Assembly (NCBI GenBank): GCA_021296215.1
Contig: JAGWBA010000019.1
Location: 1 to 35,099, forward strand
Length of the DNA stretch: 35,099 nucleotides
Direction: 5' to 3'
Source of the DNA: Flavobacteriales bacterium
GTDB taxonomy: Bacteria; Bacteroidota; Bacteroidia; Flavobacteriales; ECT2AJA-044
Shown here in pieces: positions 3,077 through 20,948 of this stretch; within the stretch, counting starts at the first letter, position 1; each line of letters begins with the position of its first letter. The notes under the pieces were generated by a model that was not told the DNA's origin, did not search any database, and saw only the letters and a list, made by a program, of their open reading frames with translations. A program made the position numbers and the translations under genes.

Positions 3077-4219
3077 ATGCGCTGGGCCTACGTGTACCAA
3101 AACGAACTTGGCCGGCGCAGTGCCAACCTAAAGCAAACGCTGAATACCGTAGACCGACTCTCTACTCAAGTGGATCTCCGCTTCTTATGTTCTACTTATG
3201 AATCCGCCGAGCGGTCGTTCATTTCGAAACAATTCGGATTGAATGTAGACAAGACGGTGCTTCCATTGAACGTAAGCTTGCGAACGACGAACCTCATCGC
3301 GGAGTTCCGATCGCGCTATCGATACAACAAGGCCGTGGTCCGCGAACTCCAAAAACAGCAGTTCGACGTAATCTACACGCGCGATTTCGGCTTTCTGTTC
3401 TACCTGTGGCTTACGGGGCAGCGTAAAAATATTCCCGGCTACATCGTGTACGAACCCCACAAGGTATACCACCGGTCTTCGTCAAAGGTCATGCGCTTTA
3501 TGGAAGCCGGCGCGCTGAAACAATGCGATGCCATAACGCCCATAACGAAAGGTCTTTTGCAGGACCTGCGGTCCGATTTTTCACTCGCCCAACCCGCTCA
3601 TGTACTGCCCGACGGAGTGCGCATCGTGCCGCAGGCACAAATAAATAAAAAGCTCCACGACAGTCCGGTTCGCTTCATTTACGCCGGCAGTTTTAAAAAG
3701 TGGAAAGGATTGGATACGCTGATCGATGCGGTAAAGATCCTCTCGAAGGATGAGCCGGAATTGTGCGTGACCATTTGTGGTGGCAGCGAATCTGAAGTTG
3801 AGTCCATGCAAGCCCGCTGTCGTGAATGGAGTATCAATGAGTTCATCCATTGGAGAGGCTACCTCAACGACCACGAGCTACAAAAAGAGTACGAACGGCA
3901 CCATGCCGCCATACTGCCCAACACCACCGAAACCATTAGTGCGCGGTACACCTCGCCGCTAAAACTTTTTGAATACCTGGCGCACGGGCTGCCTATAGTA
4001 GCCTCCGACCTGCCGAGTTTACGCGAAGTACTCGACGATCACAGCGCTCTATTCTTTACGGCCGAAAACCCGCAAGCCCTGGCCCAGGCGATGAGTAAAA
4101 TAGCGGCCCAAAGTGACTTGCGACTGGCCATGAGCGAGCGCAATGCTACCTTTGCACAGCAGTTCTCGTGGGAGAACCGAGCTAAAAATCTGGTGAAATT
4201 CGTTCATGAGCAGCTTTGA
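3077..4219 (+). CDS. GT4-family (GT-B fold) glycosyltransferase
   Basis: 380 aa, soluble. The C-terminal Rossmann domain starts near residue 195 with FIYAGSFKKWKGLDTLIDA, the nucleotide-binding entry strand and helix of GT4 enzymes. The donor-binding signature follows near residue 295 (SPLKLFEYLAHGLPIVASDL), including the usual E of the EX7E region. The N-terminal acceptor domain contains YEPHKVYH, as seen in GT4 hexosyl- and glucuronosyl-transferases. It should add one sugar to a lipid-linked glycan at the cytoplasmic face. The gene overlaps the following sulfotransferase by 14 bases, placing glycosyl transfer and sulfation in one operon. Donor and acceptor are unknown. Confidence 0.88.
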   Translation: MRWAYVYQNELGRRSANLKQTLNTVDRLSTQVDLRFLCSTYESAERSFISKQFGLNVDKTVLPLNVSLRTTNLIAEFRSRYRYNKAVVRELQKQQFDVIYTRDFGFLFYLWLTGQRKNIPGYIVYEPHKVYHRSSSKVMRFMEAGALKQCDAITPITKGLLQDLRSDFSLAQPAHVLPDGVRIVPQAQINKKLHDSPVRFIYAGSFKKWKGLDTLIDAVKILSKDEPELCVTICGGSESEVESMQARCREWSINEFIHWRGYLNDHELQKEYERHHAAILPNTTETISARYTSPLKLFEYLAHGLPIVASDLPSLREVLDDHSALFFTAENPQALAQAMSKIAAQSDLRLAMSERNATFAQQFSWENRAKNLVKFVHEQL

Positions 4220-11686: not shown

Positions 11687-12121
11687 CTAGCTGGAGAGTA
11701 CGGTCGGAATCAACAGCACGATGAGTTCCTCTGGTCCGGAATCCTTTTTACGAATCCACAAGGCCGCCAATGCGATCACCATGGTCAAGAGGAAAGGCCA
11801 GGCTCCATACCATTTCTCGACCCGAAGACCGAGTCCATTAACGACGAAATAGGCGGGTACGTTGAAGTACAGTATGAACTTGTGAGACTCGTATACGTCG
11901 TAGTCCTCATCCGGATCGTACATCACGCTTTCGGGGCGGGGGGCATCCAAAGGCACACCGGTCTTTACGGCATGCATCAATCCGTTGTACGAGCTCACCT
12001 CGTCGCTCAGGTGAAGGTACTTATCGAGGTAGTTCACGGACGATATACCCGCGTACAGCATAACGAGCACTCCCAGGGAGAGTACGATTCTTCGAATCAG
12101 TACGCTCTTTGAGTTGCCCAT
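11687..12121 (-). pseudogene. N-terminal part of the interrupted GT-C membrane protein
   Basis: 144 aa. A first membrane helix (residues 9-27) is followed by an acidic loop with YLHLSDEVSSYNGLM, which fits the DE motif found after TM1 in PMT/ArnT-type GT-C enzymes, and by a second helix region (PFLLTMVIALAALWI). Translation stops at TAG (complement of 11687-11689) at the start of what should be the next helix, while the frame stays open beyond. Its ATG overlaps the cysN stop as TAATG, so it is coupled to PAPS synthesis. The intact protein would be expected to transfer a lipid-linked sugar in the periplasm. Sequence error, a recent nonsense mutation and readthrough are all possible. Confidence 0.72.
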
Positions 12122-13386
12122 TAAATGATCATTCCGGCCGCTACCGTTTCATTCGTTCCTTCGTCTACCAAAATGATACTTCCGGTATTGCGATTCTTGC
12201 GATAGCTATCGGCCAACAAGGGTTTGGTGGTGCGTAGGCGGATCCGCGCGATGTCGTTCATGCCAATGTTGTTGTCCGTTTCATCGCGGTGCAAGGTGTT
12301 GATATCGACCTTGTACACGATCTCTTTGACCATAGCACGGGCATCGGTGGTCGTGTGGCGAATTGCGTATTTTCCACCGTTGATCATCGGCCTGTTATTG
12401 AACCAACAGATCATAACGTCGAGGTCTTGGGTGGGCTCGGGCTGATTATTCACTCGGCAGATCATATCGCCTCGTGAAATATCGATCTCGTCTTCCAAGG
12501 TCAGGGTGATACTCCTTGGAGCAAAGGCTTCTTTGATCTCCTGATCGCCGTCGTAAAGGGCCTTGATCTTGCTGGTAAACCCGCTCGGTAGCGCGATCAC
12601 GTCGTCACCCGGCTTCAAGATACCACCGGCCACGCGCCCCGCGTATCCCCTAAAGTCGTGGAACTCGTCGCTGTGTGGGCGAATGACCGTTTGAACCGGA
12701 AAGCGCACGTCGATGTGGTTTTGATCCGAACCGATGTGAATGGTTTCCAAGGTATTCAGTAGTGTAGAGCCATCGTACCACGGCATGTTCTCAGAACGGT
12801 TCACCACATTGTCGCCATGCAGGGCCGATATCGGAATAAAGCGAATATCGCCGATCTCAAGTTTGGCACTAAAGTCTTTGAATTCCTGCACGATCTTCTC
12901 GTACTGATCTTCGCTGTAATCGACCAAGTCCATTTTGTTGATACACAAGATCACGTGCGGGATCTTGAGAAGGCTCGCTATAAAACTGTGTCGACAGGTT
13001 TGTTCGATCACTCCTTTGCGCGCATCGACAAGGATCAACGCCAAGTTGGCCGTTGACGCACCGGTCACCATATTTCGGGTGTACTGGATGTGTCCCGGAG
13101 TATCGGCAATGATGAACTTTCGCTTAGGCGTGGCGAAGTAGCGATAGGCCACATCGATGGTGATTCCTTGCTCGCGCTCATCTTTGAGTCCGTCCGTAAA
13201 CAAACTCAAATCTACATGGTCCAATCCACGCGTTTTCGAGCTCGTCTCCACGGCTTCGATCTGATCTTGGAAAATACTTTTTGAATCGTACAGCAAACGA
13301 CCGATCAAAGTCGATTTACCGTCGTCTACACTCCCCGCCGTGGTGAAGCGTAGGAGTTCCATATCTAAGTAACCCTTGGTGTTCAT
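12121..13386 (-). CDS. cysN: Sulfate adenylyltransferase subunit 1 (GTPase)
   Basis: 421 aa from the ATG at 13386. CysN uses GTP hydrolysis to drive formation of adenosine 5'-phosphosulfate by the CysD partner. Motifs: G1 P-loop GSVDDGKST (18-26), G3 DTPGH, G4 NKMD, then two beta-barrel domains as in EF-Tu-like GTPases. There is no fused APS-kinase domain, consistent with the separate cysC. An in-frame ATG at 13413 would add nine residues, but those codons fall in the CATGGCC-type repeat words upstream; MNTKGYLDMELLRF is the more natural N-terminus. It is separated from cysD by the 470-base hairpin array instead of the usual few bases, and it overlaps the GT-C-like gene by one base (TAATG). 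Confidence 0.95.
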   Translation of the reverse strand: MNTKGYLDMELLRFTTAGSVDDGKSTLIGRLLYDSKSIFQDQIEAVETSSKTRGLDHVDLSLFTDGLKDEREQGITIDVAYRYFATPKRKFIIADTPGHIQYTRNMVTGASTANLALILVDARKGVIEQTCRHSFIASLLKIPHVILCINKMDLVDYSEDQYEKIVQEFKDFSAKLEIGDIRFIPISALHGDNVVNRSENMPWYDGSTLLNTLETIHIGSDQNHIDVRFPVQTVIRPHSDEFHDFRGYAGRVAGGILKPGDDVIALPSGFTSKIKALYDGDQEIKEAFAPRSITLTLEDEIDISRGDMICRVNNQPEPTQDLDVMICWFNNRPMINGGKYAIRHTTTDARAMVKEIVYKVDINTLHRDETDNNIGMNDIARIRLRTTKPLLADSYRKNRNTGSIILVDEGTNETVAAGMII

Positions 13387-13856
13387 TCTTTCTATGCTTT
13401 GGCCATGAGTCATAGGCCATGGGCTTCTTTATACTTTGGACCGTGGACCATGGACTGCTTCTAACTTTAGCGAAGTTCAAATTTCCCTTAAACTAAGCTA
13501 AGGCTAAGGCTAACAGCTTCATTCTGATCGCTTGAGCGACCTTATTCAAAGAACCTGATTGCGCGCAGCGCAACCTGATTTCATCTTTTCACATCCTCGA
13601 GCCTGTGGCTCGATTTTTCCACCCCCAGCCCCTGCCCACGGGGGACTTCTACTTACTCACTACTTGCCCAGACGCAGATGTCCGGGAGCCTTCAGCTCTA
13701 ATATCCTCGCCCTCTACGCGAATTTCCCTGCTGCTTTGCAGCAACTTTACTCGCCTCCGGCGAACTAACTTGCCGCTGCGCGGCAAACAGACTTGCTGCT
13801 CACCAGCAAATCGACTTGTGGCCCTGCCACAAACTGTCTCGAGCCAACGGCTCGAA
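13387..13856 (-). repeat. Mosaic hairpin array between cysD and cysN
   Basis: This 470-base gap holds no credible gene. It is packed with short inverted repeats. The regular part, in plus coordinates, is TGCTGC/GCAGCA (13729-13743), TCGCC/GGCGA (13751-13763), TTGCCGC/GCGGCAA (13770-13786), TTGCTG/CAGCAA (13793-13809), TTGTGGC/GCCACAA (13816-13832) and TCGAGCC/GGCTCGA (13839-13855). Loops are 3 nt except one of 5. Spacers are ACTTTAC, ACTAAC, ACAGAC, ATCGAC and ACTGTC. Further stems are at 13528-13539, 13559-13573 (TTGCGC/GCGCAA) and 13597-13613 (TCGAGCC/GGCTCGA again). A C/G-rich stem lies at 13619-13645. The part next to cysN holds TTAGCC repeats and CATGG-type palindromes (13410-13455). The last stem ends 1 base before the cysD stop codon. 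Confidence 0.85.
13619..13645 (-). repeat. C/G-rich dispersed repeat, copy 1
   Basis: CCACCCCCAGCCCCTGCCCA followed by CGGGGGACTT (plus strand). The run of Cs pairs with the run of Gs to form a stem on the transcribed strand. A second copy at 19387-19416 has nearly the same sequence and the same flanking logic. Confidence 0.7.
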
Positions 13857-14762
13857 TCAGAAGTATCCTTGTTTCTTCCGATCCTCCATCGCGCTTTCGC
13901 TCCTCTTGTCATCGGCTCTACCTCCGCGCTCGGTCACCCGCGTACTGGCCACTTCTTCAATGATCTTCTCCAGAGTATCGGCATCACTTTCAACAGCTCC
14001 AGTGATCGTTAGATCACCCATGGTTCTAAAGCGCAGGGTTTTCATTTCGGGGACCTCGTTCGGTTTCTTATTCAGGAATTCCGAGTCGCTCAAATACTGT
14101 CCATCGCGCAAGATCACACTTCGCTCATGAGCGAAGTAAAGACTCGGTATTTCGATATTCTCCAACAGGATGTACTGCCAAACATCCATCTCCGTCCAGT
14201 TCGAGATCGGGAACACCCGGAAGTGCTCGCCGTAATTCTTTTTCCCATTGAATAGGTTCCATAACTCAGGACGCTGATTCTTTGGATTCCATTGCCCAAA
14301 CTCATCGCGGTGACTGAAGAAACGCTCCTTGGCACGCGCCTTTTCTTCATCGCGTCGGGCTCCACCCATGGCCGCATCGAACTTATTCGATTCTATCGCC
14401 TCCAACAAGGCGGGGATCTGCGCGGTGTTACGACTCGCATCGGTCCCTTTTTCTTCGGAGGCCTTTCCTTCGTCAATGGCTTTTTGCACCGAACCCACCA
14501 CGATTTGAGCCCCGAGTTTTTTAACGAGCTCATCGCGAAACTCAATGGTTTCCGGAAAGTTGTGCCCCGTATCGATGTGCACCAGCGGAAACGGCACCCG
14601 CGCCGGCCAAAAGGCCTTTTTGGCGAGGTGGGTCAAAATAATACTGTCCTTACCGCCCGAAAAAAGCAGACAAGGGTTGTTGAATTGTGCATACACCTCG
14701 CGAATCACATAAATGGATTCCGCCTCTAATTCACGGAGGTGTTTCAAATAATATCTATTCAT
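13857..14762 (-). CDS. cysD: Sulfate adenylyltransferase subunit 2
   Basis: 301 aa, the normal length. CysD catalyses adenylation of sulfate by ATP and pairs with CysN. The PP-loop is SGGKDS at residues 35-40, followed by [11 protein letters not shown] and the PAPS-reductase-like fold; the C-terminus has the conserved [16 protein letters not shown] and [13 protein letters not shown], ending DRKKQGYF. The ATG overlaps cysC by 8 bases. The stop codon is followed after one base by the first stem of the hairpin array, so the array begins at the gene boundary rather than after a normal 3' spacer. Confidence 0.96.
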
Positions 14763-17979: not shown

Positions 17980-17992
17980 CGAAATAGCCATT

Positions 17993-18010
17993 AGCCAATG
18001 GCCATTAGCT
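17993..18010 (+). repeat. Left inverted repeat flanking the four-helix-bundle gene
   Basis: AGCCAATGGCCATTAGCT. The reverse complement of 18397-18414 matches it at 17 of 18 bases. The core AATGGCCATT is itself palindromic, so part of the match is unavoidable; the inverted alignment (17/18) is still better than the direct one (15/18). Confidence 0.5.
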
Positions 18011-18050
18011 TAGGCAATGGATTTGTGGGTGGCCTTGGGTATACATATCA

Positions 18051-18473
18051 TTGAACTATGAGAAAGTTCCAAAAATACGATGTTGGAATAGGGCTCAGGA
18101 TTTAATTCCACTGATATATCAAGTAACTCAAAAGTTCCCCTCTGAAGAAAGGTATGGAATCACCTCTCAAATTAGAAGAGCTTCGAACAGTATTGCAGCC
18201 AATTTTGCAGAAGGCTGCAGCAGGTCTTCAGAACCGGAGTTCAGAAGGTCTCTTGAAATATCAATAGGATCGGTTTTCGAAGTAATCAGTTTTCTGGAAA
18301 CGTCTAAAAGACTGCGCTACATAGAAGCTTCGCAGTTTGCAAAGCTGGAAAATGATTTGCTGATAATAGTTAGAATGCTAAGTGTACTGCGCGCAAAGCT
18401 AATGGCCAATGGCTCATTGGTGCTCAAGCACCAATGGGATGCCACGTCGTCTTATACTCCACGAAATCCGTGA
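18051..18473 (+). CDS. Four-helix-bundle protein (S23 / IVP / Avd-like family), probably frameshifted near its start
   Basis: 140 codons from a TTG. The core is a clear match to the family: FPSEERYGITSQIRRASNSIAANFAEGCSR followed by EFRRSLEISIGSVFEVISFLE. Such proteins are encoded in 23S rRNA intervening sequences and at many scattered loci in Bacteroidota; related Avd proteins assist retroelements. The ATG at 18058 lies in the next frame and gives MRKFQKYDVG; one extra T near 18078 would turn this into MRKFQKYDVWNRAQDL, which fits the family N-terminus much better than the TTG reading. A one-base deletion is therefore likely. The last codons run through a repeat word and 50 bases into the convergent ALDH-like gene, so the natural C-terminus may be near 18396. 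Confidence 0.75.
   Translation: MNYEKVPKIRCWNRAQDLIPLIYQVTQKFPSEERYGITSQIRRASNSIAANFAEGCSRSSEPEFRRSLEISIGSVFEVISFLETSKRLRYIEASQFAKLENDLLIIVRMLSVLRAKLMANGSLVLKHQWDATSSYTPRNP
18397..18414 (+). repeat. Right inverted repeat flanking the four-helix-bundle gene
   Basis: AGCTAATGGCCAATGGCT, the partner of 17993-18010. It is read as codons at the end of the four-helix-bundle frame and is followed immediately by a perfect hairpin at 18415-18436. Confidence 0.5.
18415..18436. other. Perfect hairpin at the convergent 3' ends
   Basis: CATTGGTGCT at 18415-18424 pairs with AGCACCAATG at 18427-18436 around a 2-nt centre. It contains the TGA of the minus-strand ALDH-like gene and lies inside the + frame of the four-helix-bundle gene. 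There is no T run on either side, so it is not a standard intrinsic terminator, although it could stabilise the 3' end. Confidence 0.6.
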
Positions 18474-19313: not shown

Positions 19314-19340
19314 AGTCTGACCAAGTATTTTTCAAATTCC

Positions 19341-19515
19341 GATTCGCCTTTGGCGATCATGATTTCGGTTTAGTCAAATTATCATTCCACCCCCAACCCC
19401 CGCCAGCGGGGGACTTTCTTTTTATTCCTGATTCGCCTTAGCGAACCTGATTTTCGCTTTTCGAAAACCCGATTCCGGCTTCATCGGAACCTAATCTCGC
19501 AGGTACCCTGCGAGA
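19341..19515 (-). repeat. Mosaic hairpin array between the two ALDH genes
   Basis: Stems in plus coordinates: TCGCC/GGCGA (19344-19356), C/G-rich stem (19397-19412), TTCGC/GCGAA (19432-19445), TTTTCG/CGAAAA (19451-19467), TTCCG/CGGAA (19473-19489) and TCTCGCAGG/CCTGCGAGA (19495-19515). Successive spacers are CCTGA, CCCGA and CCTAA. The final stem is formed by the last codons of the ALDH gene itself (...LAGYLRD), and the spacer CCTAA contains its stop codon. The layout mirrors the cysD-cysN array. Confidence 0.8.
19387..19416 (-). repeat. C/G-rich dispersed repeat, copy 2
   Basis: CCACCCCCAACCCCCGCCAG then CGGGGGACTT. It matches the copy at 13619-13645 with few changes and also forms a stem (CCCCCGC/GCGGGGG). 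Motifs of this kind are scattered in many Bacteroidota genomes as far as I recall. Confidence 0.7.
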
Positions 19516-20948
19516 CCGGGAAGCCCGCCTTCGCGTCCAAATCCGCTTTCTTTGTATCCACCGAACGGACTTGCGGCATCGAACAGGTTGTAGCTGTTCG
19601 CCCACACGACCCCGGCCTTCAGTTTTCCCGTCAGTTCAAATATCTTCGACCCCTTCTGTGTCCATACACCGGCGCTCAGCCCATAGGGTGTATTATTCGC
19701 CTTCGTGATCACCTCGTCCAGCGACCTAAAGGTCTGCACCGCCAGCACGGGTCCAAAGATTTCTTCCTGAACGATCCGATGGCTCTGCGACGTCTCCAAG
19801 AACAGGGTCGGCGCGCACCAGTAACCCTTTTTCGGCAGCGCGATGTCCTGGGTATACATTTCAGCCCCTTCTTTTTTACCCAGCTTTAGGTATTCTTGAA
19901 TGGTCTTCAATTGTCCCTTGCTGTTAATGGCTCCGATATCGGTGTTCTTATCGAGCGGATCACCGACGATGAGGCTCTCCATGCGCATCTTTAATTTTGC
20001 GATCACCTCATCGGCCACCGCCTCTTGAACGAACAGGCGGGACCCGGCGCAGCATACATGACCTTGATTAAAGAAAATGCCGTTGACGATGCCCTCTACG
20101 GCTTGATCGATCGCGGCATCGCGACAAATAATATGCGCTGCCTTGCCCCCTAATTCAAGGGTCAATTTCTTGTTGGTTCCGGCCGTCGCCCGCTGAATGA
20201 TCTTGCCCACTTCCGTGGATCCAGTAAACGCAATTTTATCGACATCGGGATGATTCACCAGTGCCGCACCCGTTTTCCCGGCACCGGTCACGATATTGAC
20301 CACTCCTTTCGGAAAGTCGCAATCGGCGACCAGTTCGGCCAACTTCAAAGCGGTCAACGAAGTAGTCTCGGCGGGCTTCAATACCACCGTATTTCCGGCC
20401 GCGAGCGCTGGCGCCAGCTTCCACGCAGCCATGAGTAAAGGGAAGTTCCAAGGGATTATTTGACCGCAAACGCCCAGCGACTCAGCACCCCTCGGAAAGG
20501 CGTAATCGAGCTTGTCGGCCCAACCGGCGTAGTAAAAGAAGTGTTGGGCGACAAGTGGAACATCCACGTCGCGGCTCTCGCGGATGGGTTTTCCGCCGTC
20601 CATACTTTCGATCACGGCAAACTCGCGCGCTCGCTCCTGGATCATGCGGGCCAAGCGGAACAAGTATTTCGCCCGCTCCTTTCCGGGCAATTTGCTCCAT
20701 TTTTTGTGGGCCCTACGGGCCGATGCGACCGCCCGATCGACATCGGACTCATCTGCTTCGGCGATTTGGCTGAGCGGCAATTCGGTGGCTGGATTGACCG
20801 TAGGAAAATACCTTCCGGCCGTAGGCCGAGAGAATTCCCCATCGATAAAGAGTTCGTACTGTTCGGCGATGGATACGTGTTCGCTGCTTTCGGGTGCCGG
20901 TTCGTAGGTCCAGCCGCTGTGAAAGTCAAATTCGTGTTCTTGTGCCAT
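19491..20948 (-). CDS. NAD(P)-dependent aldehyde dehydrogenase, ALDH16-like first domain
   Basis: 485 aa, a complete ALDH. It oxidises an aldehyde to a carboxylic acid. Seen: IPWNFP (165-170), FTGSTEVGK (241-249), ELGGK with Glu265 as general base, NQGHVCCAGSR with the catalytic thiol at about Cys299, EEIFGPVLAVQTF, and the C-terminal PFGGYKESGFGREGG. The N-terminal extension (FHSGWTYEPAPES) resembles the start of ALDH16-type proteins. It lies 1 base after deoC. DeoC releases acetaldehyde from deoxyribose 5-phosphate, so acetaldehyde is a natural substrate. The stop codon is embedded in the hairpin array, which separates it from the truncated ALDH domain; the two are in different frames. Confidence 0.92.
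   Translation of the reverse strand: MAQEHEFDFHSGWTYEPAPESSEHVSIAEQYELFIDGEFSRPTAGRYFPTVNPATELPLSQIAEADESDVDRAVASARRAHKKWSKLPGKERAKYLFRLARMIQERAREFAVIESMDGGKPIRESRDVDVPLVAQHFFYYAGWADKLDYAFPRGAESLGVCGQIIPWNFPLLMAAWKLAPALAAGNTVVLKPAETTSLTALKLAELVADCDFPKGVVNIVTGAGKTGAALVNHPDVDKIAFTGSTEVGKIIQRATAGTNKKLTLELGGKAAHIICRDAAIDQAVEGIVNGIFFNQGHVCCAGSRLFVQEAVADEVIAKLKMRMESLIVGDPLDKNTDIGAINSKGQLKTIQEYLKLGKKEGAEMYTQDIALPKKGYWCAPTLFLETSQSHRIVQEEIFGPVLAVQTFRSLDEVITKANNTPYGLSAGVWTQKGSKIFELTGKLKAGVVWANSYNLFDAASPFGGYKESGFGREGGLPGLAGYLRD

Follow-up and report, generated by a model that had tools for sequence, protein, structure and literature searches.

A tandem array of short hairpins between cysD and cysN of a Flavobacteriales genome, its relatives in the same genome, and a candidate fold-defined DNA word of the genus

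To our knowledge, all DNA words described to date that are spread over whole genomes (uptake sequences, Chi, KOPS) are read by sequence, and Chi in addition shows a replichore strand bias. Hairpins in high copy number are familiar from the REP, BIME, and REPIN elements of the TnpA-REP (RAYT) systems, short palindromes that are mostly found in intergenic regions near gene ends and are often arranged as tandem or inverted pairs. The RAYT enzyme reads the REP hairpin together with a tetranucleotide tag. The early promoters of phage N4 contain hairpins with stems of 5-7 bp, a closing C-G pair, and a 3-nt loop of the G..A form, and this C(GNA)G arrangement of closing pair and loop is needed for hairpin extrusion from supercoiled DNA, while some of the stem bases are free if paired (PMC4496689). 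Very short DNA hairpins with a C(GNA)G loop are also of unusual stability (PMC4686876). In mitochondria, the repetitive hairpin-forming elements (RHE) and double-hairpin elements are dispersed intergenic hairpin repeats, which are reported to have invaded some lineages and not their sisters (PMC2800124).

The locus described here lies in a window of 35,099 nt (the whole stretch of DNA that was analysed) from a Flavobacteriales genome. Both cysD and cysN are encoded on the minus strand, and the array is thus located between two genes of one transcription direction. The gap between them comprises 443 nt and is a mosaic of the array and other modules. In the following list, which proceeds from cysD to cysN and then to features elsewhere in the window, the sister is the only other member of the genus that was compared, and the covariance model R2 and the genus word are described further below.

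13857-14762, minus strand: cysD, sulfate adenylyltransferase small subunit (profile and sequence)
13729-13855, unstranded: core array, six perfect hairpins in tandem with a period of 19-23 nt and 21-23 nt from centre to centre (sequence, top R2 matches)
13729-13743: hairpin 1 of the core array, TGCTGC-ttt
13751-13763: hairpin 2, TCGCC-tcc
13770-13786: hairpin 3, TTGCCGC-tgc
13793-13809: hairpin 4, TTGCTG-ctcac
13816-13832: hairpin 5, TTGTGGC-cct
13839-13855: hairpin 6, TCGAGCC-aac; read on the minus strand, TC-GAGCC-gtt-GGCTC-GA, it is the first one to follow the cysD stop codon (sequence)
13618-13646, unstranded: C-rich module CCACCCCCAGCCCCTGCCCACGGGGGAC, with relatives at 19385-19416 and in the flanks of the arrays L196 and L187
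13597-13613, unstranded: separate hairpin TCGAGCC-tgt-GGCTCGA, adjoining the C-rich module
13553-13580, unstranded: CCTGATT-spaced hairpin TTGCGC-gca-GCGCAA of a second array type with the near-constant spacer CCTGAT (R2 match at 13559-13613)
13437-13513, unstranded: degenerate 6-7-nt repeats (TGGACCA, CTAAGG), which are also present beside arrays elsewhere
12121-13386, minus strand: cysN; the start at 13386 agrees with the sister protein, and the reading frame is open to 13413
19340-19515, unstranded: second hairpin-rich insertion of the window, CCTGATT type plus C-rich module
20709-20723, minus strand: example of the genus word inside a gene, ATC-GGCCC-gta-GGGCC

The initial annotation had described six perfectly paired stems at 13729-13855 between cysD and cysN, and the stems, their loops and spacers, and the identity of the two genes (cysD at 13857-14762 and cysN at 12121-13413, both on the minus strand) were all found as described. 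All six stems are perfect, the loops comprise 3 nt with one exception of 5 nt, and the spacers comprise 6 nt with one exception of 7 nt (actttac, actaac, acagac, atcgac, actgtc). Such regularity had been supposed to exceed that of shuffled sequence, and this is the case: the segment 13528-13856 contains 8 hairpins and a chain of 6, compared to an average of 0.75 hairpins and a chain of never more than 3 in 20,000 shuffles of the segment that keep the dinucleotides. The array had further been regarded as neither a CRISPR nor a single terminator, and as an element without a name, with which our results agree. CRISPRs consist of constant direct repeats and unique spacers, whereas no direct-repeat family is present in 13380-13900. 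An intrinsic terminator consists of a GC-rich stem and a subsequent U-tract, whereas none of the six array stems is listed as such or followed by a U-tract, and the four terminator-like matches are all located outside the array. The window does not contain any match to Rfam 15 above the gathering score, and a description of such an element was not found among open-licence papers. Further stems of the same style had been proposed to continue to 13528. Perfect stems are indeed present at 13559-13573 and 13597-13613, but they belong to other modules, namely the CCTGATT-spaced hairpins and a module of the form CCACCCCC...GGGGGAC. The stem word at 13597-13613 is identical to that of the first array hairpin and has a different loop. 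The module CCACCCCC...GGGGGAC is common to the cysDN gap, the region 19385-19416, and other loci. At the second locus of the window (19340-19515), the genes of the sister are separated by about 6 nt. A perfect hairpin of 9 bp (19495-19515) is formed by the final codons of the gene at 19491-20948, and the sister protein has the same end point but a different sequence and no hairpin. The region 17983-18440 contains a gene for a four-helix-bundle protein (23S rRNA-intervening sequence protein, PF05635), which lies between degenerate AATAGCCATTAGCC / GGCTAATGGCC repeats in mutually inverted orientation, and together these look like a possible mobile unit.

The sequence read comprises 1.55 Mb of this genome, which is a 97% complete draft of 135 contigs with several arrays at contig ends, and 0.8 Mb of the sister. 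The genus sample is these two genomes, whose cysD are 94% identical, and genes outside the named families were called with a home-made codon model. Pairs of hairpins with 3-nt loops at a centre distance of 20-22 nt were seen 35 times in this genome compared to about 11.6 expected, and 4 times in the sister compared to 4.7 expected. A scan for three-unit chains in the 1.55 Mb revealed 14 chains at a score of at least 15.5, and one shuffle gave a single chain at score 15. The array units follow a common grammar of a T, a stem of 4-6 bp enclosing a 3-nt loop, and an A, followed by a 6-nt spacer of the type ATNNAC. Within an array the spacers are alike and the stems differ. Nearly all arrays are intergenic and most are near a stop codon. 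R1, a covariance model of one sequence-related array subfamily, identified about 39 distinct loci in this genome, one relic in the sister, and no match in 58 other genomes of the order. The general three-unit model R2 was built from other loci without any window sequence, because a MAFFT alignment including the window array with its 7-bp stems was misaligned. In an unfiltered R2 search of the 35-kb window the cysD-cysN gap accounts for all of the top four matches (E 8e-5 to 3e-4), and the best two, 13793-13855 (E 8e-5) followed by 13729-13785, are within the array. This ranking ties the cysDN array to the array class of the genome, with the E of 8e-5 reached in the window alone and the window array absent from the genome-scale R1 and R2 reports. 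This genome contains dozens of such arrays, and the one at cysDN is not an isolated oddity.

The expectation that comparable arrays would be detected elsewhere, and throughout the Flavobacteriales with a covariance model, was borne out for the same genome, which contains many arrays and 34 R2 matches, but not for its relatives, with the one relic in the sister and no R2 match in 147 other genomes of the order. Similarly, the proposed comparison of cysD-cysN gaps yielded a compact gap with one hairpin in the sister, but no comparable arrays in the gaps of 80 other genomes. The arrays are lineage-specific, nearly absent from the sister and unseen elsewhere in the order, and do not represent a general Flavobacteriales element. 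Several array types can be distinguished. The second type, with the spacer ACCTGAT/CCTGATT and variable hairpins, is found at L222 (about 1640-1780), at 19430-19515 of the window, and at L003 (1465-1525), and a third type has CACTTATA-like spacers (L225, L231, L237). An array of about ten units is located in frame within an outer-membrane beta-barrel gene (L158:13444-13660, corresponding to about 33444-33660 of contig C8), where it encodes an Asn/Ser/Gly-rich linker, and this gene has no match in the sister.

Sequence similarity shows many of the arrays to be homologous copies. In an alignment of ten copies, 13 of the 28 pairs show two-sided changes, and these occupy 30 cells compared to 10.1 in shuffles, none of 500 being as high, although the copies share kinship and such cell counts, like the loop and mismatch counts below, are not independent events. 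If the partner is slid by one base, the covariation signal collapses. Two copies of 108 nt with 95% identity have five differences, of which two constitute a matched change from A-T to G-C. In this near-identical pair (TTCGAataTCGAA versus TTCGGataCCGAA), the arm sequence has changed and the pairing has been kept. Both the covariation of the dispersed copies and this pair are in accordance with the earlier claim that pairing is retained while the arms change.

The array splits a gene pair that, according to the initial annotation, normally needs matched expression, and cysD and cysN are compact in the sister, where the gap of about 50 nt contains the single hairpin ATC-GCGCC-gta-GGCGC. The first array hairpin behind cysD (TC-GAGCC-gtt-GGCTC, minus strand) has the same place and form as TC-GCGCC-gta-GGCGC of the sister, which suggests that the two are the same ancestral hairpin. 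The sister's orthologous gaps are either empty or contain one genus-word hairpin. The cysDN hairpin of the sister belongs to this genus-wide word, CATC-NNNCC-GNA-GGNNN. This genome contains 281 copies of the word in 1.55 Mb, and the sister contains 81 in 0.4 Mb. These copies are the sites with complementary arms among 413 and 115 TC-NNN-CCGNAGG-NNN sites, respectively, so that 68-70% of the TCNNNCCGNAGGNNN sites have complementary arms versus 1.6% by chance, and in 80 other Bacteroidota loci none of five TC-NNN-CCGNAGG-NNN sites has them. The profile of the word consists of C-A-T-C, five pairs with C-C beside the loop, G-(C/T)-A, and a subsequent A-rich sequence. Most sites are inside genes, where they occupy every reading frame; their spacing is random (CV ~1), and the two strands carry equal numbers. 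The window contains ten perfect copies, near 3562, 3624, 4766, 10944, 14990, 17498, 20709, 20814, 28015, and 33938. Single stem versions occur 63 times and 50/98 times in the genus, no other sampled genome has more than one copy, and reversed controls gave essentially zero.

At orthologous sites that could be aligned without gaps, all five pairs are kept in 27 of 42 cases, and six of these 27 show matched double changes at a flank identity of about 70-76%. The positions of the word are 78-95% identical (loop centre 59%) versus about 70% in the flanks. Sites lost in the other of the two species have been replaced without indels where they are alignable ungapped. Neighbouring sites in two regions of the sister (1.0-1.4 Mb and 0-0.4 Mb) are on opposite strands in 88 of 137 pairs, which is above expectation. 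A replichore-oriented word was rejected because the strands are represented by 42 versus 39 sites in a stretch where one GC skew prevails. A phage origin of the word was also rejected, the 16-mer being found once each in five IMG/VR contigs without enrichment.

It appears to be as DNA, and not as RNA, that the arrays work. Among 101 hairpins oriented by the spacer alone, 54 have GNA loops and four have TNC loops, and the closing pair is C-G in 82. GNA and C-G are the features of the N4-type apex, which the genus word contains by construction. In the window array only two of the six loops are GNA, and these are on the minus strand, opposite to the spacer rule. In the alignment of the R1 family, TNC-type loops are mainly found in the first half and GNA-type loops in the second half of the same strand. 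Wobble-type mismatches are balanced, with 23 G-T versus 20 A-C and no strand bias. The GNA/C-G loop preference, the flip of the GNA strand in the middle of the arrays, and the balanced wobble mismatches argue against selection on the transcript. It could nevertheless be imagined that the tandem stem-loops make the cysD message more stable, cause some of the transcripts to terminate, or uncouple cysN, because the array begins 1 nt past the cysD stop codon on the sense strand, many other arrays are closely behind stop codons, and the cysDN transcript folds far better than shuffles (z -5.8). However, the six stems lack a U-tract, the terminator-like matches being outside them, and the neighbours of 22 inspected R1 loci revealed both orientations relative to the genes. 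In addition, G-U is not in excess over A-C on either strand, 3-nt C(GNA)G loops are a preference of DNA and not of RNA, one array sits within an ORF, and a TAnnTTTG promoter for cysN is not seen between the two genes. A role at the RNA level is unlikely, and a strict RNA element was rejected on the grounds of the mixed orientation to genes together with the wobble mismatches without strand bias.

Pairing could also be kept by template-switch correction without any function, if strand slippage gives rise to the tandem units and the arms of imperfect palindromes are perfected by intrastrand template switching. Quasipalindrome correction is an established type of mutation (e.g. PMC7202029), degenerate short tandem repeats accompany the arrays, and the combination of like spacers and unlike stems within an array would fit. 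Such a neutral origin is nevertheless doubtful because it leaves unexplained why CATC and C(GNA)G are constant in the genus word, why genes contain several hundred copies of it on both strands, and why it is retained at orthologous positions whose flanks are only about 70% identical. It is very improbable that the hairpins are REP/RAYT-like non-autonomous palindromes whose mobility depends on a Y1 (HUH) transposase recognising hairpin and flank. They are dispersed, mostly intergenic, and have homologous copies, and the genus word combines a hairpin with the constant 5' tetranucleotide CATC like a REP tag. However, Y1_Tnp (PF01797) is absent from the 97% complete draft, while E. coli and four other control genomes were positive, the stem sequences are not conserved as they are in REPs, and the lost genus-word sites were replaced without indels in the ungapped alignments. 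This candidate was rejected based on the missing Y1 transposase and the variation of the array stems between neighbours and copies.

The reading that we favour, with moderate confidence, is that the arrays are a lineage-specific, dispersed class of DNA mini-hairpins in tandem, with apices of the C(GNA)G type, which would be maintained as DNA folds and not as RNA elements, terminators, or CRISPRs. The arrays appear to be elaborations of the fold-defined word CATC-NNNCC-GNA-GGNNN carried by the whole genus. The hairpins may act as single-stranded or supercoil-extruded DNA folds, the folded strands being what is recognised or copied, so that the arm sequence could drift while the pairing stays. 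The pairing might be kept by selection for the fold, by arm-to-arm template switching, or by both. The arrays would have grown and spread through tandem duplication and copying in this species only, and would have settled where they are least harmful, mostly near gene 3' ends. At cysDN, an ancestral single hairpin may have developed into the 443-nt array region. A consequence for cysDN expression is possible, but any effect of the array on cysD or cysN expression is probably secondary. More tentatively, the genus might use a signal in its chromosomal DNA of which the fold is read and not the full sequence, namely the about 180-200 copies of the word per Mb in and outside genes, which would be kept at orthologous sites by matched changes of both arms and of which the tandem arrays, including cysDN, would be amplified clusters. 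Its job might resemble that of an uptake sequence, a recombination hotspot, or a nucleoid/supercoiling site. If this were true, a word of several hundred copies with free but complementary arms inside protein genes would differ from sequence-read words, in that the folded strand would be what is read in the chromosomal DNA of an entire genome. The arrays would represent an amplified test bed for fold extrusion. If the folds extrude, cysDN and the compact locus of the sister would allow expression, supercoiling, and mutation to be compared at the same gene pair.

Among the described systems, REP, BIME, and REPIN share with the arrays the short palindromes, the high copy number, the mostly intergenic location near gene ends, and the frequent tandem arrangement, and dispersed intergenic hairpins in high copy number are indeed found here at the R1 loci. 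However, REPs retain their stem sequence together with a tag of the GTAG or CGTC type, whereas the array stems vary between neighbours, and the genus word has a constant CATC yet a variable outer stem. We know of no fixed 21-nt tandem grammar or GNA apex in the RHE/double-hairpin elements. The arrays and these elements, as the latter are reported (PMC2800124), are both dispersed, intergenic, and lineage-patchy, but RHE elements are mitochondrial. The genus word equals DNA uptake sequences and Chi in density and in its even distribution over genes. Uptake sequences and Chi are read by sequence, whereas three base pairs of the genus word are free if complementary, and unlike Chi the word has no replichore strand bias. 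The hairpins of the phage N4 early promoters are alike in stem length and 3-nt loop, and their closing C-G pair and G..A loop bases (PMC4496689) recur as a preference in the array family and by construction in the genus word, but they serve a virion RNA polymerase at three promoters, whereas here there are hundreds of chromosomal sites, on both strands and mostly in genes.
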